Assembly: GCA_903840415.1 (NCBI GenBank)
Contig: CAIMFY010000071.1
Span: 1-49,009 of the forward strand
Source of the DNA: an uncultured Opitutia bacterium
GTDB taxonomy: Bacteria > Verrucomicrobiota > Verrucomicrobiia > Opitutales > Opitutaceae
Direction of reading: 5' to 3'
Length of the DNA: 49,009 nucleotides
The notes beneath the pieces are model-generated. The model made no database searches. It saw only the letters and a list, made by a program, of their open reading frames with translations, and was not told the DNA's origin. The stretch's first letter is position 1. Every line of letters begins with the position of its first letter. The position numbers and the translations under genes are program-made. Positions 9,286 through 33,178 of this stretch are shown one piece after another.

Positions 9286-9996
9286 CTATTTTTTTTCGAC
9301 CACGCGCTTTGCCACGATGTCGTATTCGGCGAGTTCGCCGACTTTGCGGTGCAGCTTCAATTCGTCCCCGACGATCTTCCCTTGATATTCGATCAGGATT
9401 TCCTGGTCCTGAAATTTCAGCGGTTCGACGAACGACACTGCGCCGTTCGCTACTTTACCGTCCTTGATTTGAACCTCCGCTTTTTGGCCCTGCCGCTCGC
9501 TGGACGCTTTGCCGGTGAGTTTTTCGCCATCGGCTTTTAGGTCGAAGAGATATTTCTGCACGCCGATCTGGCTGTCGAATTCCGCCTGCCATTTGCCGTC
9601 GATGCCGGCCACCACCTTAACCCGCTTCGCCACGAGCGTCTCGGTGGCGACGTCGCCGACCTTGCGGGTGAGCTTGAGTTCATCGCCGGCCAGCTGGCCT
9701 TGGTATGCGATGCGCAGCTCCGTGTCCTGAAACTTGAGTGGCTCGACGAAGGCCACTGCGCCGTTCGCGATTTTGCCCTCGGTGATCGCGGTTTCGGATT
9801 TGTCGGTCTCCCGTTCGCCGAGCGCCTTGCCAGTGAGCTTTTCGCCGTCGGCTTTTAGCTCGAAAATATATTTCTGCACGCCGACCTGCGTCTCAAACTC
9901 GGCCTTCCACTTGCCATCAATATCGGCGGCACGAACGGAACCAACGAGCGCCAAAGCAAACGCGAACGAGCAGAGGACCAGGGAGGAGTTTTTCAT
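9286..9996 (-). CDS. Secreted protein with two tandem copies of one domain
   Basis: The 236-residue precursor has a signal peptide (KNSSLVLCSFAFALALVGSVRA) and then two copies, each about 100 residues, of the same domain. Copy 1 starts IDGKWKAEFETQVGVQKYIF and copy 2 starts IDGKWQAEFDSQIGVQKYLF. Both continue with LKADGEKLTGKA, GxxANGAVxFVEPLKFQD and end GDELKLxRKVG...LVAKR or IVAKR. The alternating hydrophobic pattern suggests a beta-rich, lipocalin-like fold. No function is known to me. The frame is open up to 10155, but the signal peptide fixes ATG 9996. It lies 56 bases after the GH2 gene and may be the last gene of the glycosidase operon, although a separate role is possible. Confidence 0.8.
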   Translation of the reverse strand: MKNSSLVLCSFAFALALVGSVRAADIDGKWKAEFETQVGVQKYIFELKADGEKLTGKALGERETDKSETAITEGKIANGAVAFVEPLKFQDTELRIAYQGQLAGDELKLTRKVGDVATETLVAKRVKVVAGIDGKWQAEFDSQIGVQKYLFDLKADGEKLTGKASSERQGQKAEVQIKDGKVANGAVSFVEPLKFQDQEILIEYQGKIVGDELKLHRKVGELAEYDIVAKRVVEKK

Positions 9997-10052: not shown

Positions 10053-12956
10053 CTAGGATTTTTTCGACGCCGGCAGCCGCGACGAGCCGTCGTCGAGATC
10101 GCGATCGAAGGCGCGGGGCGTGGCTCCGGGCGCTGGCGCGGCGGTGCTTACCCACAGTTTCCGCACCTGCTCGGGCGTGAGCACCGCAGCGGGGCTAAAT
10201 TTCTCGCCCGCCGCGTAGTCGAGCAGCGAGCGGCGCAGCTGCTGCGCGCCGGGCGCGGAGTTTTTCAGATCGATTACCGACACGAGCAGCCGGCCGGCGC
10301 CGACGCGACATTCGAAAATCACCCCGAGCCGCCAGTTGCGGTTCCAGTCATCGATCGCTGCGACAATGGGTTTCAGCTCGCGCGGCGCATCGGTGAGGTT
10401 GACGGAGCGGACGTTGTCGACGAGCGGCGTCCACTGCCAATCGCAGTTGCGGTCGGTCGGAAACTCCGCGAGCGCCAGGTGCTCCGCGTCGGCGAGCAGG
10501 CCGAGCATCGCATCGAAACGCGGTGTCGGGTTGCGCGGCGGACGGACGGTCATCTGAATATTCCAGAACACTGGCACGCGTTTCATCGGCGGCGACTTCG
10601 CCGGATCGAGATCGGCGGCGCGCGGGGTGAACAGAACTTTTCCTCCCGCCGCGAGCCTCGTCTCGGCTTCCGCCCACACGTCGGTCACGAGCACGCCGGA
10701 CGGCGTCGATGTATCGGGGGCCGCGGGATAGAGCCAGAAATTCCAGTCGTTTTCGGTGGCGACGTTTGTGCCCTTCACTCCGACGACAAGTTTGTAAGCG
10801 CCGGGCGCGGCGAGTTTCGCGAGCGCCGCGGAGACGGAGCCGAGCGGAATGTTTTTCCCAATCGGCACGTCGCGGGCCGGCCACTCGCCGCCGGCGACCG
10901 TCCGGCCGGCGGCTTCGGTAATGTTCCAATATGGCGCCGCACCGGCGATGGGTTGTTCGCCAAAGTGGTAGAGTTCGACGTCGGCCGTCAGAGTATCGGC
11001 GGTCGTGAAGGTTCGCTGCGCGAGGCGCGCCAGCGGGACGGTGGCGCTGTTGAAACGGCGCATCTCCGCGGCGGCAAGGTAGCTCTTGGGTTGCCAAAAC
11101 GCATCGACAAGTCCGATGAGCGCAGTGCCTTGGCCGAGGTAATCATGCAGGTCGAGCAACTGGTAGCCGGCGAGTCCAGGCGTGCGGAGGTTGGCCTCGA
11201 TTTCTTCCTTGTAGCACGCGAGCTGGAAGCGGCCTGAGGCCCACGCGAAGTCGCGGTTGAACTCAAGCACGCCGGTTTGCTCGGCAATATACTTGAAAAT
11301 ATTGTAGTTCGACGGCCGGAGGAAACCGGTGAATTTCTTGATCACATCGAAGTCGGGATAGGCGCACCACTGACCGACTTCGTGCGCGAGCACCGGAATG
11401 CCGACGCCCTCGAGCGCCGCGCGGTAATCGCGGCCGAACCAGCCGCTCGCGTTGCGCAATTCGCCGCGGCCGAAGCGGACGAGCCCGGCGTATTGCGCGC
11501 CGCCCGTCACTTGCTCGGGCGCCGCCCAGCCGGTGCCCGCCGCGTAAAGCCGGCGCGGATCATTTTCGTGCCACGCCTTGGCCCACGCCGGTGTGACCTG
11601 CACGTAGCGGCCCGCCGGCTCGTTGCTCGGCGACAGCAGGATGAACGACGGATGATTGCCGTAGGCGCGCAGCAACCGCGGCGTCTCCTCGTCGAGAAAC
11701 TTGGTGTAGGTGCTGCCGGGATTGAACGGCGCCCACAGCCCGCACTCGGGCGCGAGATAAAATCCCAGCTCATCCGCCGCGGTGAACGCCGCCTCGGGCG
11801 GACACCACGAGTGAAACCTCATGCCGTTGAGCCCGTAGTCCTGGCACACGCGAAAGATTTTTTTCCACGACGCCATGTCCGTCGCCGGCGCGCCCGTCAG
11901 CGGAAAATCTCCGCCCGAATGGGTCATGCGGAGATTCACGACCCGGTCGTTGATCAGAAGGTCTTTCTCGCGGTGGGTCACTTCGCGGAGGCCGAATTTC
12001 ACCTCGTGATCATCACGGGCGCCGCCCCCGCTCAATTCGATGGGAATGGTTTGGAGAACGGGATGAAACTCATCCCAAATCTTCGCATTGGTGCCGAACC
12101 CAAGCTCAAACTCGCATTCGCCGCCAATCAGGCCCCACGTCACCGGATACTTCACTGCATTGATCGACAAGGTGCCCGCCCCGGGTTGGTTGCTCGCATT
12201 GCCGATCCAGATTTTGAAGAGCACATTTTTTTTTGCGAGATTCGGGAAGGCCTGCACGTCTTCGATCCACACGAGCGAAGTCGATCGCAACTCGATCCGG
12301 CCGACGATGCCGTTCCACGTCGCGCCGAGCGCATCCGACACGCTGTGGCCATCGACGCCGTGGCCATCGTTTACCGGGTCGCGGACTATCTGGCGATTAT
12401 CGATCCGCACTGTGAGCCGGTGTTTACCTGGAGTGATCGCGCCAAGATCGAATTCGTGCGGGGCGACGAGGCTGTTGCACCCGCCGATCTTTTTATCGTC
12501 GAGCCAGACGGTCGATTCCCAGTGGGCACGCTCGAGAAAGAGCTGAAAATGGCGGGCGGCGGGCACCACGGGAATCTCCAGGTCGCGCTGATACCACGCG
12601 GCGCCGAGGTAGTGACGCGCCGGCTGCGAGAGGAACGGCACCTCGACACGGCCGGGTTGGGAAAACTTTTCGCGCAACGCGGCGGACTGGAGTTTCCACC
12701 ACGCGTCGCCGAGACCGACGACCCACGGAGTGTCGGTGCGGATTTCGTCGCCGTAGCCCTGCGCCTGCAAAATCCCCGGCAGTTTAATGCGATCGGCGAG
12801 ATCGCGGTGAAACCATTGCTCGGTCACACCCGCGTCGGCGCGATCGATCGCGAACCGCCATTCGCCAGCGAGCGAGTGCGTTTCCCGCTGCGCGTGCAGA
12901 GTCGGTGCGAGCGTGGCACTCATTGCGAGACCGAGGAAGAGCACGAAAGTTTTCAT
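10053..12956 (-). CDS. Secreted GH2 family glycoside hydrolase
   Basis: This 967-residue precursor has a signal peptide (TFVLFLGLAMSATLAPTLHAQ), a jelly-roll sugar-binding domain (about 30-190, with WYQRDLEIPVVPAARHFQLFLE and TVWLDDKKIGG), an immunoglobulin-like domain and a TIM barrel. The barrel contains the GH2 acid/base in SPSNEPAGRY (Glu446). The likely nucleophile is Glu526 in AHEVGQWC. GH2 enzymes include beta-galactosidases, beta-glucuronidases and beta-mannosidases. With GH53 and GH35 upstream, an exo-beta-galactosidase is most plausible, but specificity is not decided by these motifs. The gene starts 7 bases after the GH53 stop, so translation may be coupled. The start is set by the signal peptide; the frame is open to 13007. 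Confidence 0.9.
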   Translation of the reverse strand: MKTFVLFLGLAMSATLAPTLHAQRETHSLAGEWRFAIDRADAGVTEQWFHRDLADRIKLPGILQAQGYGDEIRTDTPWVVGLGDAWWKLQSAALREKFSQPGRVEVPFLSQPARHYLGAAWYQRDLEIPVVPAARHFQLFLERAHWESTVWLDDKKIGGCNSLVAPHEFDLGAITPGKHRLTVRIDNRQIVRDPVNDGHGVDGHSVSDALGATWNGIVGRIELRSTSLVWIEDVQAFPNLAKKNVLFKIWIGNASNQPGAGTLSINAVKYPVTWGLIGGECEFELGFGTNAKIWDEFHPVLQTIPIELSGGGARDDHEVKFGLREVTHREKDLLINDRVVNLRMTHSGGDFPLTGAPATDMASWKKIFRVCQDYGLNGMRFHSWCPPEAAFTAADELGFYLAPECGLWAPFNPGSTYTKFLDEETPRLLRAYGNHPSFILLSPSNEPAGRYVQVTPAWAKAWHENDPRRLYAAGTGWAAPEQVTGGAQYAGLVRFGRGELRNASGWFGRDYRAALEGVGIPVLAHEVGQWCAYPDFDVIKKFTGFLRPSNYNIFKYIAEQTGVLEFNRDFAWASGRFQLACYKEEIEANLRTPGLAGYQLLDLHDYLGQGTALIGLVDAFWQPKSYLAAAEMRRFNSATVPLARLAQRTFTTADTLTADVELYHFGEQPIAGAAPYWNITEAAGRTVAGGEWPARDVPIGKNIPLGSVSAALAKLAAPGAYKLVVGVKGTNVATENDWNFWLYPAAPDTSTPSGVLVTDVWAEAETRLAAGGKVLFTPRAADLDPAKSPPMKRVPVFWNIQMTVRPPRNPTPRFDAMLGLLADAEHLALAEFPTDRNCDWQWTPLVDNVRSVNLTDAPRELKPIVAAIDDWNRNWRLGVIFECRVGAGRLLVSVIDLKNSAPGAQQLRRSLLDYAAGEKFSPAAVLTPEQVRKLWVSTAAPAPGATPRAFDRDLDDGSSRLPASKKS

Positions 12957-12963
12957 GCAAGAT

Positions 12964-14100
12964 TCACGGCAGGTTCTCGGGTGTTTTTCCTCGGGTGTAG
13001 CGATCAAACACCGAGAGCACGGGCAACGCGTTGCCGTCGTCGTCGAACATGCCGCGGCGGTTCAAGCGGCCGGTGACGGCGGGCTCCCACCAGAAAATGC
13101 CCTTCCCCAGCCCATCGGGAGTCGCGAGCACGGTGCGATTTACCTCGGCCAAAAACTCGCGCTGGCCCTCGGGCGTCTCCGGAAACGGCGCGGGAAAATC
13201 GCGGTATTCGGCGGGCTTCCAGTTGTAGGCGACCTCGGCGAGGATGATGTCCTTGTGGTACCGGTGCGCCATGAACGCGAGGCAGTCGCGCAACTCCAGC
13301 AGCGTGCCGTGCCACCACGGATAGTAGGACTGGCCGATGACGTCGAACTCAACGCCCCGCTGAATCAGATGGTCGAAAAACCACGCGGTCTTTTCGCGAT
13401 CACCGGATTTTTCGATGTGAATCATGATGCGCGGACGTGACGCCGACCCGCGGCCGGCATCGACTCCGGCGATACCGGCTTTCACGAGGTCGGCAAAGTT
13501 GTCCCAGTTTTGCGGCAGCTTGCCGTCGGGCCAGAGCATGCCGGGCGTGATCTCGTTGCCGATCTGCACCATGTCGGGCATCGCGCCGGCGTCGCGAAAC
13601 GCGACGATGGTATCTCGCGTGTAGTCGCGCACGGCGGCGACGAGCTCGGCGTGAGATTTTCCCACCCACGCCTTCGGGAGCGTTTGCTTCGCGGGATCGG
13701 CCCACGTGTCGGAGTAGTGGTAGTCGAGGAGAAACTGGTAGCCGAGCGCCTTCGCCGCCTTAGCCTCGGCGATGGTGTAGGCCAGATCGTTCGGCAGCGG
13801 CCGCGCCTGATTGCCCGGCGCGTGAAACAGCCTGAGGCGAATCCAACCGTAGCCGTGGTCGCGGAAAATCTGCAGGCCGGGTCTCGCCACGCCGCCATCC
13901 TTGAATTTCGCGCCGCCCGCTTCTGCCTGCGCCAGAAACGAAAGATCGGCGCCGATGGCGTAGCCGAGTTCGGGGCGCGGTAGCGCCGTTGCCACGACTG
14001 GCGCAGACACCTCCGGCGCCGTCGCGCATCCGCCGAGGAACGCGACGATCAATATCATCAGGGGCAACGCAGCGCTGGTTCGATGTAGGGGCGGCGACAT
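12964..14100 (-). CDS. Arabinogalactan endo-beta-1,4-galactanase, GH53 lipoprotein
   Basis: The 378-residue precursor has a lipoprotein signal with lipobox LGGC, so the enzyme is probably membrane-anchored. The rest is a GH53 TIM barrel that cuts beta-1,4-galactan chains of type I arabinogalactan internally. YAIGADLSFLAQAEAGGAKF, WIRLRLFH and LDYHYSDTWADPAKQ are family blocks. The acid/base is Glu183 in QIGNEITPGMLWP and the nucleophile Glu289 in ILAEVAYNW. This is the clearest substrate marker in the cluster. I chose ATG 14100 over TTG 14118 because it directly precedes the signal peptide. GH35 lies 33 bases upstream and GH2 7 bases downstream. Confidence 0.94.
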   Translation of the reverse strand: MSPPLHRTSAALPLMILIVAFLGGCATAPEVSAPVVATALPRPELGYAIGADLSFLAQAEAGGAKFKDGGVARPGLQIFRDHGYGWIRLRLFHAPGNQARPLPNDLAYTIAEAKAAKALGYQFLLDYHYSDTWADPAKQTLPKAWVGKSHAELVAAVRDYTRDTIVAFRDAGAMPDMVQIGNEITPGMLWPDGKLPQNWDNFADLVKAGIAGVDAGRGSASRPRIMIHIEKSGDREKTAWFFDHLIQRGVEFDVIGQSYYPWWHGTLLELRDCLAFMAHRYHKDIILAEVAYNWKPAEYRDFPAPFPETPEGQREFLAEVNRTVLATPDGLGKGIFWWEPAVTGRLNRRGMFDDDGNALPVLSVFDRYTRGKTPENLP

Positions 14101-14133
14101 AAAAAGGATTCTGGTCAACGACGGGGAGCGGCT

Positions 14134-16605
14134 TCAGCGGCCGACGTCGAGCACCGCTTCGTATTCCCGCACGAGTTTTACTTCCTTGAGGCGCAGTTCC
14201 TCACCGCTGGCGGAAAACTCCGGCCGGGCTCCGTGCTCAAGAAACACCGGTGTGTCCTTCCGCAGCGGGAGGATTTTTAGGTCGAGACCACGGTCGAGTT
14301 CCGCCGGCGTAAAACGCCACAACCCGATCTCCCACGGCATGCCCTTGTAGAAATTGTCGTTGTCGAAGCGGCTGCCGGCGTAGAGCCGGGCGACGTCGCC
14401 CTCATACGAGATTTGCAGCAGCATCCGCCCGGTGCCGATGAGCGCCTCGGCCGGGACGCGCAGGTGCCAGACCGCCGCGCGATCGAAATCGGCATCCTCC
14501 GGCTCCAGCGCGACTGTTCGGTTCGGGTTCGGATTGATCTTCGCGGGCACCGAGGGGGCGGCAACTTTCACGGCCTTCACCTCGACCGCGATTTCTTTCT
14601 CGGAGAATTGCACTGTCGGAGCGTAACGCTGGAAAACACCATCGCGGCCCGCGTCCCGAAACCCCGCCCCAGCGTGCTCCAGCGCCGGCGTGATCGCGAC
14701 CGAGAGGTTTGCAGGATTGCGCGACATCACGTGGACCCGATCGCCCTCAAACCACATGTCACCCGGCGAGAACACGAGCCGGTCGCGGCCACCGAGTTTC
14801 GCCTTAGCGAGGTGGAGCGCCTGTTCGCGCGGAAGCACGAGGATTCGGATTGATGGGCCGCCGGCGTGGCTGACTTCGATCGCGATGTCGGTGCCAGAGG
14901 CCATGTCGGTGACGCACGTGAGGCCATCTTCATGAGTGAGACGTGAATGTGGTGCCGTGACTTTGTCGCCGGCCGCAGCGGCAAACACGAACTCTGGTTT
15001 CACCCCGGTCCACGCGGAAAACACCAGCGTGCGCGGCTCGTCGATTTGGCAGAGCACTTCCGCCGTGGCGGATTGGAGTGTGACGCCGCCGACATCGAGA
15101 TTCACCGGCCAGTGGGTATAAACGCCGTCCGGAATCATCGTGGGCTGCCCCGGGATTCGCACCACGCCGGTTGGAAGTTTTAGCGCGACTTGAAAATCCG
15201 TTTTGTCCCCGAGCGGCACATTCCTCTGGTAGTTGTTGATGAAAACAAAACCGCGCTTCCTGGCATCGTCGATGCGGGCGGCGACCCGCGGCGTCGTCAC
15301 GTCGTCGCGGTTCTTCGGCATCGGCGCAGGAAAATATGCGGCCATCGGCGCGAGCTGTCCACCAAAGTCCCCGAGGAACAGGTGCAGCACCCGCATCGTG
15401 CGATAGGTTTCGTTGAACTGCCCGAACTCCCCGAGCGGCGCCTGAAAATCGTAGGACTTCGCCTCCATGTCGTTGTAGCCGTTCCAGACGGACTGCGTCT
15501 CCTGCAGCGCGGTGAGGCCGTCGGGATTCGTGCCGCCATGATACATGTAATAGCCAAGGCCGGTGATGCCCGCGCCAAGCTTCACGAGCGCCGCGGCCGT
15601 CGAATCGGCGGCGTGCATGAGCGGCCGCCGGTGATAGGCGATCGACATGCCGCCGCCCATCTCGGCGGTGAGAAACGGGAAGTCGTCGTATTTCGAATTG
15701 TAGCCGGGATTCTTCGGCGAGAGATCGCCCATGACGTTGTCCTCGGCGCGAATCGTGGTGAAGAAAAAGTTCTGGTTGGGCGGCAATTCCGTCAGGCTAC
15801 CACTCCAAAACTGCTCAGTGTAGCCGCCAAACACCGGGAGAAACTCCGTCGGCGGCACGGCGGCGTTGTCCCAGCCGGTCGCGGTGCAAAACGGAGCGTC
15901 GAGGCCGGCGGCGTGCGCGAGTTGCAGCAGCGTCTGCATGTGCTCGATGCCACCGCGGCCCGGATGATATTCGTTTTCGATCTGCACACCGGCGATCGGG
16001 CCGCCGTCTTTCCAGAACAGCCCGTGCAACTGCCGCCCGATCTCGCCGTAGAAAAGCTTCACGCGTGCGAGATACGCCGGGTTGTTGCTGCGCACGTCGC
16101 CGAGCTTCACGACCCAGTCGGGAAAACCGCCGTTGCGCGCCTCGCCGTGACACCACGGGCCGATCCGCACCCACGCGAGCAAGCCGTGTTTGGCGCAGAG
16201 TTCGATGAAGCGCCGCAGATCGCGCGAGCCCGACCAGTCGAAATTTCCCTCGGTCTCCTCGTGGTGCAGCCAGAAAACATATGTCGCGACGACGGTGATG
16301 CCTCCGGCCTTCATCTTGAGCAGCTCCGTCTCCCACTCCGCCGCCGGGTAGCGCGAGAAGTGAAACTCACCCATCACCGGAAACCACGGCTGGCCGTCGC
16401 GCGTGAGGTAGCGCGTGTTGGCCGCGAGCACGTGCCCGTCTGGCGACTTGCCGCCCACGGCAAAGGCCAGCGGCGCGGGGGCTTTCGGTGGAATACTCGC
16501 GTCGATGGCTATCTCGACGGCGCGCATGGCGACCGGCGCCAGCAAGGCCACCCCGAGCAATAGCGCTACGCAAAATATGTGCTGACGAAAAAATGGAAAT
16601 TTCAT
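14134..16605 (-). CDS. GH35 beta-galactosidase
   Basis: This 823-residue secreted enzyme has a signal peptide (FCVALLLGVALLAPVAMRA). Its GH35 catalytic barrel runs from GEFHFSRYPAAEWETELLKM through VATYVFWLHHEETEGNFDWSG and WVRIGPWCHGEARNGGFPDW. Acid/base Glu212 sits in GVQIENEYHPG and nucleophile Glu315 in TAEMGGGM. C-terminal beta-sandwich domains fill the rest. GH35 enzymes remove terminal beta-galactose, here probably from oligosaccharides released by the neighbouring GH53. The start codon overlaps the stop of the upstream GH51 gene in an ATGA, which implies translational coupling. Length is normal for large bacterial GH35 proteins. Confidence 0.93.
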   Translation of the reverse strand: MKFPFFRQHIFCVALLLGVALLAPVAMRAVEIAIDASIPPKAPAPLAFAVGGKSPDGHVLAANTRYLTRDGQPWFPVMGEFHFSRYPAAEWETELLKMKAGGITVVATYVFWLHHEETEGNFDWSGSRDLRRFIELCAKHGLLAWVRIGPWCHGEARNGGFPDWVVKLGDVRSNNPAYLARVKLFYGEIGRQLHGLFWKDGGPIAGVQIENEYHPGRGGIEHMQTLLQLAHAAGLDAPFCTATGWDNAAVPPTEFLPVFGGYTEQFWSGSLTELPPNQNFFFTTIRAEDNVMGDLSPKNPGYNSKYDDFPFLTAEMGGGMSIAYHRRPLMHAADSTAAALVKLGAGITGLGYYMYHGGTNPDGLTALQETQSVWNGYNDMEAKSYDFQAPLGEFGQFNETYRTMRVLHLFLGDFGGQLAPMAAYFPAPMPKNRDDVTTPRVAARIDDARKRGFVFINNYQRNVPLGDKTDFQVALKLPTGVVRIPGQPTMIPDGVYTHWPVNLDVGGVTLQSATAEVLCQIDEPRTLVFSAWTGVKPEFVFAAAAGDKVTAPHSRLTHEDGLTCVTDMASGTDIAIEVSHAGGPSIRILVLPREQALHLAKAKLGGRDRLVFSPGDMWFEGDRVHVMSRNPANLSVAITPALEHAGAGFRDAGRDGVFQRYAPTVQFSEKEIAVEVKAVKVAAPSVPAKINPNPNRTVALEPEDADFDRAAVWHLRVPAEALIGTGRMLLQISYEGDVARLYAGSRFDNDNFYKGMPWEIGLWRFTPAELDRGLDLKILPLRKDTPVFLEHGARPEFSASGEELRLKEVKLVREYEAVLDVGR

Positions 16606-18641
16606 TCGCGGATTTTCAGACGGAGAATGGTGAGCGAGTTGGGGGGAAAACGGTGCGCGAAGACCGGACCAGCGACCGTGAATGATTCATCGCGGGGCGC
16701 GATCTTGCGCGGCGACTCGAAGGAATTTTCGTCATCGGCGCTACCCGAAGTCAGCACGGTGGCCCGCACGTCGGGCGTAATCCGCGCGACCCCGCGCAGC
16801 ACCACCTCCGCCTCGCGCGCCTCAGCAAACGGATTCGCCACCGTGATGATTAGATCGCCGGCGCGATCATCGCGTCCGGCGACGGCGAAGAGCGTGGGCA
16901 GCGAATCCGGATGGAAGGGTGGGAGCGGCGTGGCGCCGTAGGTCGCGACGTCGCGCGCAGGCAGCGACGGAAGCACGATCGGTGCGCCCTCAACCGTGAC
17001 GGGCACCACGAAATCGGGCCGGTTGCGCGCAAAGAGCGACTGCACGTGATACGACGCGGTGCCAAAGACGCGCGTGTTGTCGAACCAGATGAGGTCGGGC
17101 TGCCACTGGAACGCACCCGCCTTCGCAAAGAGCGGGGCGTAGGATGACATCGCGACGAGATCACCGTTGCGCACGAGCCCGGTCATGAACGCGGCCTCGG
17201 CGATGGCGCCGTGCAGCGTCGAGCGCATGCGGCCGTCGCGCACCGCAAATTCGCCGGCAAAGACCCGTGGCCCGCTGCGGGATTGCGCGTCGTAGCGCGT
17301 GGAGTTTTCCAAGAACCACTGCGCCGGACGATAGTAGTGCTCGTCGACGATATCCGCGGGCGTGCCACCGCGAAATTTATCCCACGCGAGTTTCCAGGAG
17401 CCGTCGTCCACGCCCGGACCGGCGCCACTGACGACTTGGATTTCCTGATGCTTCGCCTTGAGCGCCGCCTGAAAGATTTGGTAGCGCGCGAAATAATCCT
17501 CGCCCCACTGCTCGTTGCCGATGCCGAGTCGCTTCAGATGAAACGGGTCCGGGTGACCCATCGCGGCGCGCTTCGCGCCCCACATCGAAGTCGTCGGGCC
17601 GTTGGCAAACTCGATGAGGTCGAGCGCGTCCTGGACGAACGGATCGAGTTGGTCGAGCGGCACAAGTTGCTTGCTCTGGTATTGGCAAGCCATGCCGCAA
17701 TTCAGGATCGGCACCGGCTCGCAGCCGAGGTCCTCGCAGAGTTGAAAAAATTCAAAAAAGCCGAGGCCGTAGGTCTGGTAATACTGCGGCGCCGTCTGTC
17801 CGCGGATCGCATCTTGCCAGCGGTTCCAATTCTGCGGGCGCTCGGCGATGTCGCCGATCGTGTCCTTCCATTGGTAGCGGTTTGGCAGGTCTCGGCCCTC
17901 GACGATACAGCCACCGGGAAAACGCATGAAGGCCGGCTGCAGCTCCGCGAGCATCTGCGCCAGATCGGCGCGCAGGCCGTTGCGGCGGTCGTGAAACGTG
18001 TGCTCGGGAAAAAGTGAAACGACGTCGAGATCGACGCGGCCGGTCGCAGTCGCGAGCACGACGAGCCGCGCATGAGTCACCGTCCCGCTGCTCTTCAACG
18101 TGCCCTCGAGTTTTTTCCACACGGTCGTGAGACCGTCGAGTTTGCACTCGCCGAGCGGGCGGCCGGTTTCGTCTTCGAGCACCGCGCGCAAGGAACCAGC
18201 ATAATTCTCAGACGCCCGCGCGCGGACGGAAAAGAAATAGTTTTCGCCGGCCTTTAACGCGATACCGCCGTAACCGGAGTTCGCGATGCCGAAACCTTGG
18301 CCGGGTTTGGCAACCTCAAGGCGGAGGTAGTGCGGGTTTTTCGCGTTGAGCGGATCTGCGGTCGTTATGTCGATGCCGCCTTCGGCTCCACGAATTACCA
18401 AACTCCACGCATAGAGCGACTCGGCGTGCTCGAACGATCGATTCTGCACGAGTTCGGCGTAAAGACCGCCGTCGGCGCCGTAGTTAATGTCCTCGAAAAA
18501 AATCCCGTGGAGCAACGGACTGACGGCATGGCCCGGCGCGCCAGCTTCGATCGTGATGCGCGCGTTGAGATCAGCGGCGACAAGCGGGACCGGAATATTC
18601 GCCAGCAACCAGACTGCGAAAAATATGCGGTGAGGCTTCAT
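16602..18641 (-). CDS. GH51 alpha-L-arabinofuranosidase with carbohydrate-binding insert
   Basis: The 679-residue secreted enzyme (signal IFFAVWLLANIPVPLVAA) has the large GH51 layout. It begins SPLLHGIFFEDINYGADGGLYAELVQNRSFEH, then has a CBM4/9-like beta-sandwich insert (about 60-215), then the barrel with FMRFPGGCIVEG. Acid/base Glu377 is in LGIGNEQWGED and the likely nucleophile Glu464 in FAGEFAVRD. A C-terminal arabinofuranosidase beta domain follows. It removes alpha-L-arabinofuranosyl side groups from arabinan or arabinogalactan. It begins 12 bases after the agarase-like gene and overlaps GH35 by 4 bases. Its leader on the coding strand reads ACCTCCTGCC before the ATG, the complement rather than a copy of a Shine-Dalgarno. 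Confidence 0.93.
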   Translation of the reverse strand: MKPHRIFFAVWLLANIPVPLVAADLNARITIEAGAPGHAVSPLLHGIFFEDINYGADGGLYAELVQNRSFEHAESLYAWSLVIRGAEGGIDITTADPLNAKNPHYLRLEVAKPGQGFGIANSGYGGIALKAGENYFFSVRARASENYAGSLRAVLEDETGRPLGECKLDGLTTVWKKLEGTLKSSGTVTHARLVVLATATGRVDLDVVSLFPEHTFHDRRNGLRADLAQMLAELQPAFMRFPGGCIVEGRDLPNRYQWKDTIGDIAERPQNWNRWQDAIRGQTAPQYYQTYGLGFFEFFQLCEDLGCEPVPILNCGMACQYQSKQLVPLDQLDPFVQDALDLIEFANGPTTSMWGAKRAAMGHPDPFHLKRLGIGNEQWGEDYFARYQIFQAALKAKHQEIQVVSGAGPGVDDGSWKLAWDKFRGGTPADIVDEHYYRPAQWFLENSTRYDAQSRSGPRVFAGEFAVRDGRMRSTLHGAIAEAAFMTGLVRNGDLVAMSSYAPLFAKAGAFQWQPDLIWFDNTRVFGTASYHVQSLFARNRPDFVVPVTVEGAPIVLPSLPARDVATYGATPLPPFHPDSLPTLFAVAGRDDRAGDLIITVANPFAEAREAEVVLRGVARITPDVRATVLTSGSADDENSFESPRKIAPRDESFTVAGPVFAHRFPPNSLTILRLKIRE

Positions 18642-18653
18642 GGCAGGAGGTCG

Positions 18654-20444
18654 CTAAAGGCCCCAAGGTGTCGAGGGCGTGCCAGCTTCGGCGGCCTTCG
18701 GTTTCTGCGCGAAGGGCAAAAGTGTTCCGGCGTGAACATCGTGCAGTCGCTGATGGGTCACCTTCGCGGCTTCGACGAGTTCCGGATAAGGCCGGTCGGT
18801 CGAGTCGACGAGACCGATGCTGTAATTCTCGCCGTCAAACCGGCCGAGCACCGGCTCGTCGCGCCACGTGAACCAGTGCGCGCCGAGCGAATAGGGCAGC
18901 GAGACCGCCTGCTCGACGAAATAGCGGTAGGCATTGCCGCGCTCGGTCTGGTTCGCGACCTGCACCAACCCGGCGCCGAGCCCGTTCTCCGGCACGCCGA
19001 AGTGAAACTCGCCGATCAGAATCGGCCGGCCGCTGAGACGATGGGATCGCTCGAGCTGCTTGGTCGGCTCGTATTCGTAGACGTTGATGCTGCACACGTC
19101 GAAGACGCGCGCGAGGCGCATCACTTCGTCAGCCGGCTTGCCGCCGAAACGGATGCCAAGGTTGAGGTGGTTCGGATCGTATTTGCGGACGGCGGTGCAA
19201 ATCACGTCGAGGTAGTGCGCAAACGCACCGACGACAAATTGCCGCCGCTGCTTCGGCGTGTCGCCCGCGGCCAGGAATTCCTTCAGTTTGGCTTTGGTCG
19301 CCGTGTCGGGGCCGGCGAGAATCAAGTCTACAACTTCGCTTTCGCGATCGCCCCACGGCGGCTCGTTGCCGATGAAGTAGCCGATGACGAGCGGATCATC
19401 CTTGCGCGCGGTGCACTGGGTCTTCGCCGCCTCGTCGATCCCGGGCACAAAATCTTCCGCGTAGACATCCGGCACGCCGAGAAACGTCGTCTCCGGCGTG
19501 CGCGGCCAGCGGAGCATCTGGATGCTGGGCCGGCCGGCGCCACCGGTGTTGAGACCCCACGCGTCGAGCCGGCGTAGCTGGCGTTGCTGTGCGGCCACTT
19601 GCGCGGGCGTGGGCGTCGCGGTTGCGCCGCCGCGACCACTACCACCGAAACCGCCGATGCCATTCGAACTCGTCGACAAAAACAAATGCCCGTGCGGATC
19701 GACAAACCACCACACGCCGTCGATCTCTTCGACGCGGAAGAAGCCGGTAGCCTTCGCGCGGCCGGCCGTGTCTTTGTAACCGCCGAGTTCACAGTAACCG
19801 AAGTCGGCGCCGTGGCCGAACGATTTTTCCTCGGCGGCGAGCTCTTGATCGAGCTGCGCGCGGCTGTGAATCTTCCGCGGGTAATCGACGTGCACCCACT
19901 GCCCAAACTCATCGATGACCGGCTGGCCCTCGAGAAACTCCGAACCTTCATCCTGTTTCGCGAGATGGAGATTGCGCAGCTCGATGACGGGTTGGTTCAG
20001 CGGATAATCCATCGAAAGACCGATCGCTTCCACCGACTTTAATTCGCCGAACGGGCCCCACACCGACATCCAAAACGAATTCGTCCGCCGATTCGTCGCC
20101 GACGCGAGGTCGGTTCCTTTCTGGTCGTGACCGATCAGGTGCTGCAGCGGAATCGACGCCCGCAGCCAGACGTTTTGCCCAAAGGGCTGCAGTTCGACCC
20201 GCCGCGGCCCGTCCGCAGTGTAGATCCAAAGTGCGAACCGCTGTGGCGTGGAGGTTTTCATCTCGACGACGAGGTGCGTGTAACCCGACCAGTCCGACGG
20301 CAGCGCCGGATCGATTTCCGACAGCGAGAGTTTTCGCTCGCAGAGCACACCGTCGAACACGAGCCGGCGCGACGGCTCGGTTCCGTGCGCGACTCCAACC
20401 AGCGCAGCAACGACGCCAACCAGAAGAAGCACTCGTGTTTTCAT
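18654..20444 (-). CDS. GH50/agarase-like secreted glycoside hydrolase
   Basis: The 596-residue precursor has a signal peptide (TRVLLLVGVVAALVGVAHG), an N-terminal beta-sandwich (about 25-185) and a TIM barrel. The linker VIDEFGQWVHVDYPRKIHSR and the block GFFRVEEIDGVWWFVDPHGH resemble GH50-type beta-agarases and their relatives. Candidate catalytic residues are Glu361 in FIGNEPPWG and Glu479 in LIGEFHFG. True GH50 enzymes cut beta-1,4 bonds in agar-type galactans. Surrounding genes suggest pectic or arabinogalactan substrates instead, so this member may act on another galactan. A glycine-rich loop (GIGGFGGSGRGG) sits near the barrel start. The frame is open to 20756, but the signal peptide fixes ATG 20444. 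Confidence 0.78.
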   Translation of the reverse strand: MKTRVLLLVGVVAALVGVAHGTEPSRRLVFDGVLCERKLSLSEIDPALPSDWSGYTHLVVEMKTSTPQRFALWIYTADGPRRVELQPFGQNVWLRASIPLQHLIGHDQKGTDLASATNRRTNSFWMSVWGPFGELKSVEAIGLSMDYPLNQPVIELRNLHLAKQDEGSEFLEGQPVIDEFGQWVHVDYPRKIHSRAQLDQELAAEEKSFGHGADFGYCELGGYKDTAGRAKATGFFRVEEIDGVWWFVDPHGHLFLSTSSNGIGGFGGSGRGGATATPTPAQVAAQQRQLRRLDAWGLNTGGAGRPSIQMLRWPRTPETTFLGVPDVYAEDFVPGIDEAAKTQCTARKDDPLVIGYFIGNEPPWGDRESEVVDLILAGPDTATKAKLKEFLAAGDTPKQRRQFVVGAFAHYLDVICTAVRKYDPNHLNLGIRFGGKPADEVMRLARVFDVCSINVYEYEPTKQLERSHRLSGRPILIGEFHFGVPENGLGAGLVQVANQTERGNAYRYFVEQAVSLPYSLGAHWFTWRDEPVLGRFDGENYSIGLVDSTDRPYPELVEAAKVTHQRLHDVHAGTLLPFAQKPKAAEAGTPSTPWGL

Positions 20445-20446
20445 AT

Positions 20447-21472
20447 TTATTTCGGCGGCAGCAATTCGATGTGCGTCGGCGCGTCGCGATCGCAGGTGAG
20501 CCAGCCGTCGGCAAATTTCAGCTCCACAACTTGGATCGAACTGCGCTTCATGTTGGGCACGCCGGGGTGGACGAAATAAAATAGAAACGCGCGATCGCCG
20601 CTCAGCACCACTTCCGGATGGTGGCCGCCATTTTGGTCGTCCGTGCCCGTGCCCGGCCGATCGAGGAGGCTCGCGGGCTGGCGTTCCCACGTGAGCGCAT
20701 CGTCGGAGCGGTAGGCGCCGAGCCCGATGTTGCCGAGCAAATCGATCAACAGCCAATAATGACCGTGCCAGAAAAACGCCACCGGCGCCTCGCCGCGATC
20801 ACGCGGGAGATGCGCGGAACCTTTGTCGGTCCAGCGGTAGAGATCTGGGCTGTCGGCGTAGAAAATGGTCTTGCCGGTGCGCTCGTTGTTATACCACAGG
20901 CGCCACGTGCCGTCGGGCAAACGCAGCACGCAGGGATCGATGACCTTGTCGGTGACGAGCGGAAGCGTGCCTTCGTATTTCCAGTGCTTCAAATCGGGGC
21001 TCGTGACGTGGACAATGTTTCGCGGGTGCTGCCAGTCCGTGAAAATGCCCGGCACCACCGTGACGAACAGGTGATAGACGCCGAGATCGTAGGTCAGCGC
21101 CGGTGCCCAAAACGTCGGCGAGTCGCCGGCGGTGTCAGGAATGTCTTTCGGAAAATCGACGGTGCCGCGGTAGGTCCACACCGCGCCATCGGTCGATTCG
21201 GCGATGCCGATCGGTGTGCCGTGGACCCACGTGACGGCGGTGAGGCCAGGGACGTTGGCGCGGCGGTTGGTGTAAAACATCAGCCACTTTTTTTCCGCCC
21301 GATCGTAGATAATCGAAGGATCGGCGGCGCCGTCGAAGATCGGATCGCGGTAGAGTGGCTTCGGCGCAATTTTCCCAGCGGAGTTGTCGGCCGCTTCTGC
21401 GGCGAAACTCGCAACGGCCACAAAGAACGAAGCGAGAAGAAGAAGTCCGGAATACAATCCGGCACGATTCAT
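20447..21472 (-). CDS. GH43-like five-bladed beta-propeller glycosidase
   Basis: The protein has a signal peptide (AGLYSGLLLLASFFVAVASFA) and a five-bladed propeller of the GH43 clan. The three acidic residues expected of GH43 are visible: Asp51 (GAADPSII, general base), Asp179 (KVIDPCVL, pKa modulator) and Glu228 (RGEAPVAF, general acid). Family members act on alpha-L-arabinofuranosides, beta-xylosides or beta-galactosides. Given its neighbours, arabinofuranosidase or exo-galactanase activity is likely. Its stop is 2 bases before the next start, and it is probably the first gene of the glycosidase operon. I chose ATG 21472 for its signal peptide; ATG 21490 and GTG 21514 are alternatives. Confidence 0.85.
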   Translation of the reverse strand: MNRAGLYSGLLLLASFFVAVASFAAEAADNSAGKIAPKPLYRDPIFDGAADPSIIYDRAEKKWLMFYTNRRANVPGLTAVTWVHGTPIGIAESTDGAVWTYRGTVDFPKDIPDTAGDSPTFWAPALTYDLGVYHLFVTVVPGIFTDWQHPRNIVHVTSPDLKHWKYEGTLPLVTDKVIDPCVLRLPDGTWRLWYNNERTGKTIFYADSPDLYRWTDKGSAHLPRDRGEAPVAFFWHGHYWLLIDLLGNIGLGAYRSDDALTWERQPASLLDRPGTGTDDQNGGHHPEVVLSGDRAFLFYFVHPGVPNMKRSSIQVVELKFADGWLTCDRDAPTHIELLPPK

Positions 21473-21520
21473 CGATCCGAGCAGGGGCATAGGTGATTTT
21501 TGACGATAGGCCACCCACTG

Positions 21521-21586: not shown

Positions 21587-24500
21587 TCAGCGCTCACCGA
21601 GCACGAGCGTGCCGGTCTGCGCCGCTTGATCGCGTGCAAATTCGATCGTGACCGATTCACCGGGGTGCAAGTTCTTGAGCGCCTCGGACAGCGCCTTCAG
21701 GTTCGGGGTTTTCGTGGCACCCAGTGCCAGCAAACGATCGCCCGCGCGCAGTCCGGCTTTTTCTGCGCCCGATCCGGGCTGCACACTGCCAACTCGCACG
21801 CCTTCGCCTTCGAAGGCCATGTCAGGCACGATGCCCGTGGCGGCCCGACGAACCGACGATGCCGGCGGAGTGGCGGCAGTCGGGGCGCCCGAGAAATGCA
21901 GCGGCTCGGGACGGACAGCGAGGTAGTCGGCTGCCTCTTTCAGGATCGCGCCGACTTTGGTCATACCCGCGTAGTCGATCTTTTCGGGCGTGTCGGTTGG
22001 CCGGTGATAGTCGGTGGCGACCGAGGCGAAGAGTTGCACGGCGGGGACGCCAGCTTCGACAAAGGCGGTGTGGTCCGAGGCGTCGACATCTTTGGTGACC
22101 GGATTCGTTGGCACGCCGGTGACCGCCGTTGCGCCCATAAAAATGAAGGTCCACTCGCGCGCCGATCCGGCCCCGAAGATCGTCACCTTGCCCTCCTGCA
22201 GTCGTCCCACCGTGTCCAAATTCAGATCGGCGATGTGCGTCGACAACGGAAACGCAGCTCCGGGAATCTTCGCCGTTTGAACATAGTGGCGCGAGCCCAG
22301 CAGCCCGGCCTCCTCGGCGGTGAACGCCGCAAAGATGACGGTACGCTCGGGTTTCGCCACGGCGGTGAGTCGCGCGAGTTCGAGCAGCACCGCGACACCG
22401 GAGGCGTTGTCGTCGGCACCGGGATGCAGTTTGCCCTTGGCTCCGGCCCGCGCATCGGGCCAGCCAAAACCAAGATGATCGTAATGCGCCGAGACGATCA
22501 GCGCCTGACCGGCAAAAGCGGCGCTCGCACCCGGCATGATGCCGATGACATTCTTGACGGCAACCGGCTGGCCGCTTTCGCCGGCCACGGTGAACGGCTG
22601 GAAAAAGCGGCCGGCTCCGTTCGCCCCCGACACCAGCGGTAAAAGGCCGAGCTGGGTAAAACGTTCGGCGACGTAATCGGCGGCCGTATCCAGGCCCTTG
22701 GTGCCGATTCCGCGACCCTCGCGCTCGGGCGCGGCCAGCCACTCGACATCGGGCTTCAGCCGCGACGTGTCGAAGACCGGCTTCGTTTCGGCCAGGGCCT
22801 TGCGCAACGCCAGCTTGATAGGCCGGGCGCCCGGAATCAGATCGCGCACCAGCGGAGAGTCTTGGGCGGGCCATTCGCCCTTGGCCTCGTTGACCGCTTC
22901 GTCGCCGGCGAACACCAACCAGGAATATTTGCCGTAGTGGGGCAATTTACGGGCGAGGGCATCCGCCGCTGCCGCGCTCGAAGCCGTCACGTAAACGAGG
23001 ACGGACGATGGATTCTGCGGATGGCGCACGCCCACAATCACACTCCGCCCGTCGGGCGCGTAGCGACTGTCGCCCACCCGCAACACGCCTTGCGTCAGCG
23101 ACGCCGCCGCGGGCGCCAGCGCCCCAACGACCACCGGCGCAAATTTGTTGTTCGCGCCCAACACCCACACCGCGTGATCGGCCGGCAAGGTGCTCAGCTG
23201 GCTGTCGGCGACCGCTTCGACGCCCTCCTTGGTCCACGCTTTCATGAGGCCGGCATAGAGCCCCGCGCCGTCGGCGGGCGTGACGATCAGGACTTTTTTT
23301 GCGCCGAACGCCTTCGACAGCGAGGGCGGCGTCTCGAACGGACTGAGGCGACGGTAGAGCTGAAACTGCGGGTCGATCTCGATGCGTTGCGCCGGCGCGC
23401 CGAGGTCCAGGCTCAGTTGCACGCGCGTGTGGTCGGCCGGCATCGCCACGGTGCGCGTGACCACGCCGGCCGCTGTCTGGATCGCCACGGGCACATCGAG
23501 TGCGAAGCGGCGGCCGGGTTGCACCTGAGCCAGCGTGAGATCCAGCGTATTGCCGCGGACCGCGGCATTTTCCAATTTCAACTCGGGCGTGCCCGTGACC
23601 GTGATCCACTGGTCGAAGAACGGCTTCAGGTTCCGGCCCGTGACCGCCTCGAAACTTTTTCGGATGTCGTCGAAGCTCGCGGCCGAGAAACAGTGATCGC
23701 GGTAGAATTTCTGCAGCGACTGGACGAAAAGTTCATCGCCGATCTGCTCGCGCAACATATTCCAGACCATCGCGGTCTTGCCGTAGCCGATCGCCTCGGT
23801 GACGGCGTTGGAGCGGCTTTGGAAGCGAGTTAGCGGGAAATCCGTCTCGGGCGCGACATAGTCGGTGACGCGCTGCAGGATGTCGCGGCGATGTTCCGCG
23901 CCCTGCCCGCGCTGCTCCGCAATCAGGTGATCCGCGAGGTAGGCGGTGAGACCCTCGCACCAGTTGCCGCCGACGAAATCGACGTAGACGCCGTTGCCCC
24001 ACCAGTTGTGCAGCAACTCGTGCGGATACGACGAGTGCAGGATGAACGGCAGGCGGATGACCTGTTCGCCCAACAGTGTGAACGAAGGCATCCCGTAACC
24101 GGTTTCCCAAAAATTTTCGACCAGCGCGAATTTGGTGTAAGGGTAAGGACCGAGCAGGCCGCGATACATTTCCAGATATTCGGCCGTGGCTTGGAGGTAG
24201 CGATCGGCCATCGCCTGATCGGGCTGGCGCAGAAACGCCATCGCGGTGACCGCACCCGCGGCGCGCGAATACTCGGTGAACCGCGCCGCGATCAAATAAA
24301 CCTCCTCGGTCGGCGTCGCGACCGACCAGCGTTCCCGCGCGCTGTGGCCGCCGTCCGCGGCGGCGGAAATACTCCTCTCGCCCTGACTCACTGATTTCCA
24401 GCCGGCCGGCAGCTCGGATTGCAGCGTGAAGGTGAGCAGCTCGTCCTTGAACTGGGGCACCCAATGCGTCGAGCCCGCCAGATAAACGCCGCGCTCCTCG

Positions 24501-24988
24501 ATCAAACCGGGCGACTGGCTAAACCCGCGCGCATATTCGTCGCCCTGCTGCTGGACGGGATGGTTGATGACGCCCTCATACGCCAGCTCGCCGCTGAATT
24601 CCCGGCCTGCCACGGCACCCGCCACCCGATAGAGATCGACGGGCACGCGCATCGCCGGATTCTCGTCCTCGCGATCCATCCCGACATCGGCCGCCGCCAC
24701 GTGCGATTTGATCCGGGTGAGTGCGAGGCCGCCCGGCAGTTCGATCAGTTTCAGATCGGAGTTCAGCGACAGGGTCAACGGGTCGCTAACCAAGGCCGCG
24801 GGAATTTTCACTCGGTCCCGAACCCGGACATGATGAGTCGCTGGATCGACGGTGACAGTGAGATCGTGGTGAACCACGGCCCCGGGACGCGCCGGTTGGG
24901 CCAATCCAACCTGAGACAGCTGCAAGAGCAGCGCACCGGCCAGACCGAGGGTAGAAACCATTGAACGGGGTAGTCGCATGGAAGTCAT
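21587..24988 (-). CDS. Secreted M1-like/M28 fusion peptidase with PDZ domain
   Basis: This 1133-residue exported protein joins two metallopeptidase modules. After a signal peptide (VSTLGLAGALLLQLSQVGLA) comes an M1 aminopeptidase-like region with zinc motif HELLH (323-327) and a downstream ligand Glu345 in NWCEG. The usual GxMEN motif is replaced by ETGYGMPSF. A second region (about 720-1010) is an M28 aminopeptidase: SAHYDHLGFG, GADDNASGVAVLLE, FTAEEAGLLGS, NLDTVG and DYHRPTD supply the two-zinc ligands and the catalytic Glu. A PDZ domain (about 1030-1133, MAFEGEGVRVGSVQPGSGAE, AGLRAGDRLLAL) ends the chain. ATG 24988 is preceded by GGAG. The protein probably digests extracytoplasmic peptides. 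The AKR gene lies upstream. Confidence 0.88.
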   Translation of the reverse strand: MTSMRLPRSMVSTLGLAGALLLQLSQVGLAQPARPGAVVHHDLTVTVDPATHHVRVRDRVKIPAALVSDPLTLSLNSDLKLIELPGGLALTRIKSHVAAADVGMDREDENPAMRVPVDLYRVAGAVAGREFSGELAYEGVINHPVQQQGDEYARGFSQSPGLIEERGVYLAGSTHWVPQFKDELLTFTLQSELPAGWKSVSQGERSISAAADGGHSARERWSVATPTEEVYLIAARFTEYSRAAGAVTAMAFLRQPDQAMADRYLQATAEYLEMYRGLLGPYPYTKFALVENFWETGYGMPSFTLLGEQVIRLPFILHSSYPHELLHNWWGNGVYVDFVGGNWCEGLTAYLADHLIAEQRGQGAEHRRDILQRVTDYVAPETDFPLTRFQSRSNAVTEAIGYGKTAMVWNMLREQIGDELFVQSLQKFYRDHCFSAASFDDIRKSFEAVTGRNLKPFFDQWITVTGTPELKLENAAVRGNTLDLTLAQVQPGRRFALDVPVAIQTAAGVVTRTVAMPADHTRVQLSLDLGAPAQRIEIDPQFQLYRRLSPFETPPSLSKAFGAKKVLIVTPADGAGLYAGLMKAWTKEGVEAVADSQLSTLPADHAVWVLGANNKFAPVVVGALAPAAASLTQGVLRVGDSRYAPDGRSVIVGVRHPQNPSSVLVYVTASSAAAADALARKLPHYGKYSWLVFAGDEAVNEAKGEWPAQDSPLVRDLIPGARPIKLALRKALAETKPVFDTSRLKPDVEWLAAPEREGRGIGTKGLDTAADYVAERFTQLGLLPLVSGANGAGRFFQPFTVAGESGQPVAVKNVIGIMPGASAAFAGQALIVSAHYDHLGFGWPDARAGAKGKLHPGADDNASGVAVLLELARLTAVAKPERTVIFAAFTAEEAGLLGSRHYVQTAKIPGAAFPLSTHIADLNLDTVGRLQEGKVTIFGAGSAREWTFIFMGATAVTGVPTNPVTKDVDASDHTAFVEAGVPAVQLFASVATDYHRPTDTPEKIDYAGMTKVGAILKEAADYLAVRPEPLHFSGAPTAATPPASSVRRAATGIVPDMAFEGEGVRVGSVQPGSGAEKAGLRAGDRLLALGATKTPNLKALSEALKNLHPGESVTIEFARDQAAQTGTLVLGER

Positions 24989-25074: not shown

Positions 25075-25989
25075 TTATCCCGCCAGCGCGCGGTTGATGC
25101 GCTGGATCGCTTCGTCCACTTCCGCCGTGTTCTTGAAGCCGATGATCACCGCGTCGATGTCCTTGCACGCCATTGCGAAGCGGATGGCCTTGTCGCGATC
25201 GGCGGGATCGGTGAACAGGCCGTTGCCGATGAGTTTCATCCCGATCACACCGCGGCCTTTCGCGTGCATGCTCTTGATCTGGGTGAGCACAGGATCGACG
25301 GGATTGGTCTCGGTCGCGGTGTAACCCCGGCCGCCGGGGCCATCCACGTATTTGCCCTGCGGGTTAACGCGCACCAGATGCACTTCGTTGAACGACGAGG
25401 CGGTGGCATCGCGCAGCGCCGGCAAATTGTGACAGGAGACACCCTTGGCCCGAATCCATTTTCTCGCCTTGGCTTCATCGAAGCCATCCATAATCCGCTT
25501 CCAAGTATCCATGCCGGTCCAACCGGCGACGATTTGACTGTGGATCAAGACACTGTCGATGTAGTCGGTGTTGAGTTTTTTGCGCTCAGCGTCGATGGCG
25601 GCAAGCGGGTCGCTCGGCTGGCCGGAGATTTTGGTCTGCACGAACAGCTTTTCGCGCGGCAGACCCTTGATGGCATCGCCGACCCAGCTGACGGTCGCAT
25701 AATTATCGCTGGTGTCGAAGGAGGTAATACCTTGATCGTAGGCGTGGCGGATGACGCGAACGAAGTTCTCCTTGCCCAGCGCAACTTGGACCTTTCCGCC
25801 ATCGACGCCCGTGCCCATGCCCAAGCGGCTCAGCCTGATCCCGGTCCGGCCCAGCGGAACCTGATCGACGGCGGTGCGCTTGGCGGTTGGATCCGAAGTA
25901 GAGAATGCCAACGGCGACAGCAGCGCGGTGCCGGCCAGCGCGGCCGAGGTGCGGATGAATTCACGGCGATTGAGTGAGCGAGGTAGCAT
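25075..25989 (-). CDS. Tat-exported aldo/keto reductase
   Basis: The 304-residue protein starts with a twin-arginine signal (NRREFIRTSAALAGTALLSP), so it is probably folded with its cofactor and exported. The barrel is an NAD(P)H-dependent aldo/keto reductase. The tetrad is present: Asp and Tyr in SFDTSDNYAT, Lys in FVQTKI, His in SVLIHSQI. The C-terminal IIGFKNTAEVDEAI is the usual cofactor-binding region. Substrates are unknown; aldehydes or keto groups of sugars are plausible because GH51 lies 21 bases upstream in the same orientation. The source of reduced cofactor in the periplasm is unclear; some Tat-exported relatives hold NADP tightly. It may be co-transcribed with GH51. Confidence 0.9.
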   Translation of the reverse strand: MLPRSLNRREFIRTSAALAGTALLSPLAFSTSDPTAKRTAVDQVPLGRTGIRLSRLGMGTGVDGGKVQVALGKENFVRVIRHAYDQGITSFDTSDNYATVSWVGDAIKGLPREKLFVQTKISGQPSDPLAAIDAERKKLNTDYIDSVLIHSQIVAGWTGMDTWKRIMDGFDEAKARKWIRAKGVSCHNLPALRDATASSFNEVHLVRVNPQGKYVDGPGGRGYTATETNPVDPVLTQIKSMHAKGRGVIGMKLIGNGLFTDPADRDKAIRFAMACKDIDAVIIGFKNTAEVDEAIQRINRALAG

Positions 25990-26010: not shown

Positions 26011-27561
<1,551 letters not shown>

Positions 27562-27722
27562 GGAGAAAACAGCAGGCGACGAGGGGTGGCGTTTCGCGGA
27601 CGCGCAACCTTCGCGCGCCGGCGGTTCAGACTCAACACCTACCACGCCGCGGCGCGCGCTTAATTTCCGCCAGACAGTCCGCTACGGTCATGCGGTGTGG
27701 CGCTGGCAGCGAGCGTCGCCGC

Positions 27723-29474: not shown

Positions 29475-29591
29475 GCCATGCCTACTGCCGGGAAGACGCG
29501 GCGACGTCCAGCGAATCGTGGTCGCCGAGCGTAAATGCAATTGAATCCGTCCACCCGAGGGTATTGTTAGAGCCCCAACCCCGGGTGCCGC

Positions 29592-32078: not shown

Positions 32079-32108
32079 GGCAGGAGGCGGGGGTTGGGGT
32101 TGAAGTGA

Positions 32109-33113: not shown

Positions 33114-33164
33114 GCCCGCATGACGAAACGCCGGGGACAAAGATTCAAATGCAAATGCGCGCCG

Positions 33165-33178
33165 GCGCAAATTTGCGC
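33165..33178. promoter_or_regulatory. Perfect 14-bp palindrome upstream of DUF6807
   Basis: GCGCAAATTTGCGC reads identically on both strands. It lies between the stop of the exonuclease III gene and the start of the DUF6807-Gfo/Idh pair. A partly matching GCAAATGCGC lies just beside it (33151-33160). The shape suits a dimeric repressor site controlling the downstream pair. No regulator gene is adjacent. Confidence 0.4.

Follow-up and report, generated by a model that had tools for sequence, protein, structure and literature searches.

What does a compact run of secreted glycoside hydrolase (GH) genes degrade when no importer is encoded beside it, and what is a relative of seaweed agarases doing among them? 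We addressed this question for the window, the whole contig CAIMFY010000071.1 (49,009 nucleotides, one of the 124 contigs of the 4.9 Mb genome of an uncultured Opitutaceae bacterium), in which six consecutive GH open reading frames (ORFs) lie on the minus strand in the order GH159, GH50-like (GH50L), GH51, GH35, GH53 and GH2. The set probably constitutes an operon whose secreted products degrade type-I arabinogalactan, the beta-1,4-galactan that carries arabinose and forms side chains on pectic rhamnogalacturonan I (RG-I). For the most part the cluster is ordinary and well formed; its one component of interest is GH50L, a relative of seaweed-agar enzymes whose plant-pectin setting is the sole unusual part of the whole.

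The six hydrolase genes and their likely substrate

The gaps from GH159 through to GH2 are 2, 12, -4, 33 and 7 bases, and the ORF coordinates confirmed this same-strand spacing as it had been reported in an earlier prediction made from the sequence alone (hereafter the original prediction); a shared strand and very short gaps, the marks of an operon, were both found for the six genes. The flanking gaps are wider, with 56 bases between GH2 and a downstream tandem-domain protein and 96 between GH159 and an upstream peptidase gene. Between positions 8900 and 22000 there were three promoter-like sites vs. 2.0 in shuffled sequence, and the single minus-strand site falls inside GH35. All six enzymes and the tandem-domain protein have a hydrophobic export-type N-terminus, as predicted for the enzymes, judged here by eye and hydropathy and not by SignalP.

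The first gene (20447-21490, with the start at ATG 21490 or possibly ATG 21472) had been called GH43-like, a family for which Pfam gave only 35 bits; we replaced this assignment with GH159 on the basis of a phmmer match to Ch_Gaf159A (7zei; E 3e-71, residues 43-338) in which D57, D185 and E234 align to D19, D142 and E190. All three essential residues are thereby kept, since their mutation inactivates Ch_Gaf159A according to the available text of its report, which also names beta-galactofuranosides as the first GH159 activity to be reported and counts alpha-L-arabinofuranosidases among the family members (PMC9278983). The window protein shares the family and the essential residues with Ch_Gaf159A but has an export-type N-terminus and lies in an operon, whereas an intracellular role is suggested for Ch_Gaf159A in that text (PMC9278983). 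The remaining family calls of the original prediction stood: GH50L (18654-20444), discussed below; an alpha-L-arabinofuranosidase-type GH51 (16602-18641; Pfam ASD1_dom 170 bits, Alpha-L-AF_C 101 bits); a beta-galactosidase-type GH35 (14134-16605; Pfam Glyco_hydro_35 191 bits); a GH53 lipoprotein with an LGGC lipobox (12964-14100); and GH2 (10053-12956). The GH53 gene, the sole GH53 match in its genome, scored 290.3 bits against a Pfam gathering score of 24 over model positions 2-340 of 340, and by family it would be endo-beta-1,4-galactanase-type. GH2 matched the model of the exo-beta-1,4-galactosidase BT4151 (NF049890) with 846.8 bits over nearly the whole model length and 8u01 by phmmer with E 1e-175; its Pfam GH2 N-domain match was 45 bits. 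GH53 and the BT4151-like GH2 support beta-1,4-galactan or arabinogalactan as the target, as had been proposed.

The nearest well-described systems are those of Bacteroides thetaiotaomicron, as given in the available text of PMC8002723. The galactan polysaccharide utilization locus (PUL) BT4667-BT4673 has a GH53 endo-galactanase and a GH2 beta-1,4-galactosidase in common with the window and would share its substrate, but it also has a SusC/SusD pair, a glycan-binding protein and a hybrid two-component system regulator, none of which is in the window, while the window adds GH35, GH51, GH159 and GH50L (PMC8002723). The RG-I PUL BT4145-BT4183 shares a BT4151-type GH2, and its GH27, GH28 and rhamnogalacturonan lyases have counterparts near GH50L genes in other genomes; the window lacks its RG-I backbone enzymes and SusC/D (PMC8002723). 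From family knowledge and these two systems we infer the substrate, the sequence in which the enzymes act, the route of uptake, the regulation and co-transcription (PMC8002723). Arabinofuranose would be released by the GH159 and GH51 enzymes, and the lipoprotein GH53 would cleave the beta-1,4-galactan; GH2, GH35 and possibly GH50L would attack the chain from its ends. The products would be taken up via TonB receptors and inner-membrane transporters whose genes lie elsewhere, and the regulator would likewise be encoded elsewhere.

The GH50-like protein

GH50L had no Pfam match, and its assignment came from a ten-sequence profile (A1, window protein included) that matched the GH50 agarases 6xj9 and 4bq2 with E ~1e-81. 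The conserved glutamates of 6xj9, which we take to be catalytic, correspond in the alignment to E361 and E479 of GH50L, both of them invariant in 27/27 rows of a second alignment (A2). The predicted model (predicted local distance difference test score, pLDDT, 88.5) gave GH50 structures for all of its first 17 Foldseek matches at 19-23% identity, and GH50L is thus predicted to have the GH50 fold with both conserved glutamates. These features are held in common with the exo-beta-agarases 4bq2 and 6xj9, from which GH50L differs in overall sequence (21-23% identity), in the motif around the first glutamate (GNEPPW vs. DNEKSF) and in gene context. A second GH50L match was not found in its own genome at E <= 0.001 among the six of eight candidates that were scored, and relatives with at least 75% identity occurred in 5 of 200 sampled family genomes, its own included.

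A genome-contig scan yielded 297 relatives, of which the best 79 loci were considered. In 25 of these the best segment is 57-81% identical to the window protein, and the 25 are distributed over Opitutae, Bacteroidota, Planctomycetota and Acidobacteriota; the 57% limit was chosen after inspection of the list. One genome (G086, L064:6500-10439) carries two adjacent GH50-like genes, 78% and ~42-44% identical to the window protein, so that all 25 close loci are closer to it than is this second copy. Polysaccharide lyase family PL11, GH28 or GH106 was present in the fetched stretch of 8 of the 25 close loci vs. 2 of the 54 others. The seeds for these three families were taken from four of the close loci (L128, L129, L138 and L144), and with the seed loci removed the proportions were 4/21 vs. 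2/54 (Fisher p 0.048); all six PL11-bearing loci are from Planctomycetota and are therefore not independent. Seven of the 25 close loci held no sought family, which weighs against a pectin-linked GH50L. In two Planctomycetota metagenome-assembled genomes (L135:8285-11725 and L187:4968-8510) a GH27-type domain, an NPCBM domain and GH50L share a single reading frame, and L141:2845-6390 is a similar frame, as seen without a Pfam scan. Elsewhere the GH50L gene is flanked by two GH53 genes (G023) or stands with GH43, a SASA esterase, GH51 and a lacto-N-biose-phosphorylase-family protein (G141). Genes in low-GC Bacteroidota loci were taken from plain ORF lists in place of a codon-trained caller.

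The company of RG-I backbone enzymes at 8 of the 25 close loci suggests a non-agarase GH50 branch. We tentatively propose, as a possibility short of an even chance, that GH50L belongs to such a branch acting on plant pectin, in which it may be exo-acting on galactosyl side chains or ends of RG-I, may have spread by gene transfer among Verrucomicrobiota, Planctomycetota, Acidobacteriota and Bacteroidota, and may partner GH27, GH2 and GH53 enzymes. No title on a pectic GH50 was found among the listed papers pairing GH50 with galactanase, rhamnogalacturonan or pectin, as judged from titles and abstract openings.

Proteins with DUF5107 and TPR domains, mostly of ~1000-1160 residues, were seen in 9 of the 25 close and 11 of the 54 distant GH50L loci, the seeds having come partly from these loci (examples are L063:2491-5889, L064:11955-15368, L128:6536-9919, L133:2274-5759, L139:11730-15128 and L142:11878-14910); none was seen in the window. 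GH50L neighbours of ~1130 residues had been considered as TonB receptors by length, and this was rejected when Pfam identified those scanned as DUF5107 and TPR proteins and one as DUF4450.

Uptake, regulation and the tandem-domain protein

Pfam searches of 34 of the 39 window ORFs gave no TonB receptor, SusC/SusD or sugar importer, and none of 30 TonB-receptor references from the same genome matched the window, in agreement with the original prediction; the transport-type matches were MatE and an RND/HlyD efflux pair. The predicted absence of a regulator held for the cluster, which has no linked one; a MarR protein, the only DNA-binding regulator of the window in the same Pfam searches, lies beside the efflux pair at 46.5 kb. 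Neither the linked SusC/SusD pair nor the linked sensor/regulator of a canonical Sus-type PUL was found among these 34 ORFs, as far as the contig reaches. The genome search that had been called for returned 36 TonB-receptor matches (35 above cut-off), 11 SSF matches, a number of which are fragments of a single frame, and 11 LacI matches; none is on the window contig, and the TonB receptors are all on other contigs, consistent with the suggestion of uptake unlinked on this contig. The SusD model PF14322 had no match anywhere in the genome, with a positive Bacteroides control and with PF07980 not searched genome-wide; the missing SusC/SusD pair, which had been presented as a puzzle, is thus to be expected. 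In marine Verrucomicrobiota, putative transporters are described as able to replace SusCD in five PUL-like loci, according to the available text of PMC8857213. Those loci resemble the window in clustering hydrolases without SusCD but are fucosidase loci, five of them with putative transporters, whereas the window would address pectic galactan and has no such transporter on its contig (PMC8857213).

The 30 own-genome receptors were also used as queries against 133 related stretches; 29 of the 30 recover another reference, and diverged receptors could escape such a screen. TonB receptors were matched in 9 of the 133: six of the 20 GH53-centred stretches (L076, L078, L081, L085, L088 and L089 among L075-L094, which were picked from a longer list), the GH159-centred L214 and L222, and weakly L134. 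The L222 receptor is 74% identical to an own-genome receptor. The distance from receptor to GH53 is 49 bp in G004, 316 bp in G108, ~1.9 kb in G143 and G040, 4.6 kb in G070 and 8.2 kb in G197, so that G004, G108, G143 and G040, with family-genome GH53 genes as in the window, have within 1.9 kb a receptor that the window lacks. That such linkage occurs in the family makes the missing linked receptor of the window a genuine difference, in favour of the original prediction and less to be expected than the missing SusC/D. Candidate galactan receptors near GH53 are encoded at L089:11252-14224, L088:5520-8777, L081:4502-7405 and L085:12453-15380. The clusters most similar to that of the window (G025, G006, G023, G086, G141 and G061) have no linked TonB receptor, none having been matched in 14 stretches from these genomes and three Bacteroidota records. 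Alignments of the six GH53-linked receptors with the own-genome references mostly cover only part of the length, at 24-35% identity, so no own-genome receptor can be assigned as the importer; own-genome stretches around two TonB receptors (L225 and L226) held no homologue of 14 window query proteins.

The protein at the 3' end of the operon (9286-9996, minus strand) had been suggested as an importer part. Its halves align over 103 residues as an internal repeat, and the model (pLDDT 86.4, predicted template-modelling score 0.56) consists of two all-beta domains, each a calycin-like barrel of ~103 residues. We take it to be an exported protein with a predicted ligand-binding accessory role. That it might instead be an unrecognised uptake or surface-binding component substituting for SusD draws on its export-type N-terminus, on the ligand binding possible for calycin-like folds, on a gene position that adjoins GH2 in G006, is one gene away from it in G025 and is close to the cluster of G023, and on its matches, found in 31 of the 200 family genomes sampled, its own included with one match; a porin-like protein (4ghb) ranked ninth in Foldseek at E 7e-3, probability 0.60 and a template-modelling score of 0.19. 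We consider this improbable, as there was no lipobox by eye and no Foldseek match with E <= 0.001, the weak matches being recurring fatty-acid-binding barrels, unrelated folds and that single low-scoring porin-like protein; homologues also occur in stretches without any sought carbohydrate-active enzyme family (L215-L219 and L221, with L217 and L218 having the DUF6807-GFO set). Two predicted small barrels, a single domain copy in all 13 homologues read and a fusion to an esterase-like protein speak against the importer suggestion. In that fusion (L223:9779-11011) the tandem-type domain, by reading, forms the N-terminal part.

The wider locus and competing substrates

The six genes are the middle part of a wider locus, so that the unit originally delimited at 10053-21472 stood as an operon-like block but not in its boundaries, the locus taking in, farther upstream, another GH51 gene and the pair of GFO and DUF6807 genes. 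All of the following are on the minus strand: an M1-M28-PDZ peptidase fusion (21587-24988), an aldo/keto reductase-like protein with a Tat-like N-terminus (25075-25989), the second GH51 (GH51b; ORF 26011-27645, start likely near 27.56 kb), a protein with a weak TPR match (ORF 27723-29540), a GFO/IDH/MocA oxidoreductase (30570-32078) and a DUF6807 protein (ORF 32109-33170), each by Pfam. The contig ends lie 9.3 kb and ~16 kb from this locus, and genes farther out are beyond view. A syntenic locus in the same genus (G025) comprises DUF6807 (76%), GFO (80%), TPR (65%), GH51b (86%), GH159 (81%), GH43, GH2 (77%), a GDSL esterase and the tandem protein (60%). Its gene order is preserved in the window, which additionally has the reductase and peptidase between GH51b and GH159 and the GH50L-GH51-GH35-GH53 block between GH159 and GH2; this block is absent from the G025 locus, no GH53 was found in G025, and the block was either gained in the window lineage or lost in G025. 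Among other relatives, the locus of G006, from another genus, covers ~26 kb, uses both strands and has GH51b, GH159, GH115, GH97, GH43, GH51, GH35, GH35, esterase, GH53, GH2 and tandem genes; a hybrid histidine kinase gene lies with those for the esterase and GH53 on the opposite strand, and a PKD-domain protein is encoded in between; G023 has GH51b-GH43-GH159-GH43-GH35-DUF5107-GH53-GH50L-GH53-GDSL-GH27-tandem; G174 has GH53 together with GH28, PL11, GH43, GH159 and GH51; and in G061 GH159-GH35-GH51 adjoin DUF4450 and DUF5107 proteins. Because the same families recur together in related genomes, co-occurrence by chance appears unlikely.

The oxidoreductase and DUF6807 pair (30570-33170) of the window and of G025 also immediately precedes tandem-type genes in G017 and G061. 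The peptidase joins M1 and M28 metallopeptidase domains to a C-terminal PDZ domain. A penicillin-amidase family protein at 4438-6858 (Pfam 492 bits) has no relation to the cluster.

Several observations weigh against an RG-I side-chain operon with unlinked uptake. GH50 is known for agarases, and GH53 was found in just 1 of the 25 close GH50L loci. The GH2 score lies under the 1500-bit cut-off of NF049890, so the protein appears to be a relative of BT4151 and not a certified equivalog. PL11, the sole RG-I backbone enzyme searched in the own genome, gave one weak match; the exact six-gene order occurs in none of the fetched related stretches; and the GH115 of G006 leaves room for type-II arabinogalactan. 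With linked receptors in 6 of 20 GH53-centred stretches, unlinked import is no general rule for such loci, and G070 alone among the six has a receptor matching own-genome references over full length, at 24% identity; this result does not bear on the substrate.

Two other substrates have to be considered. An algal galactan similar to agar or porphyran, with GH50L serving as an agarase, would fit the GH50 fold, the two conserved glutamates and agarases as the best structural matches. The identity to solved GH50 enzymes is low, though, GH53, GH51 and GH159 do not suit agarose, and 8 of the 25 close GH50L loci have PL11, GH28 or GH106 while two have GH50L fused to a GH27-type domain; an agarolytic operon was rejected on gene context and the absence of a second GH50L match among the genome candidates scored, and an algal target, agarose included, is very unlikely. 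A type-II arabinogalactan, arabinogalactan-protein or galactofuranose-bearing glycan, with GH159 a beta-galactofuranosidase, draws on the first reported GH159 activity (PMC9278983, in its available text) and on the GH115 gene in G006. GH53 and the BT4151-like GH2 indicate beta-1,4-galactan instead, and Pfam gave no GH16 or GH30 match and GH43 just as the weak match of the GH159 gene, so that we regard this target as unlikely too. Type-I arabinogalactan is accordingly the substrate that we prefer.

Pectic-galactan degradation would then be packaged here with neither SusC/D nor a linked TonB receptor, and such clusters would escape PUL searches that rely on SusC/D pairs. Of greater consequence is the GH50L clade: GH50 matches in genomes are easily taken as agar use, whereas the context of this clade points to pectin; if the pectin reading is true, a new activity for GH50 is possible.

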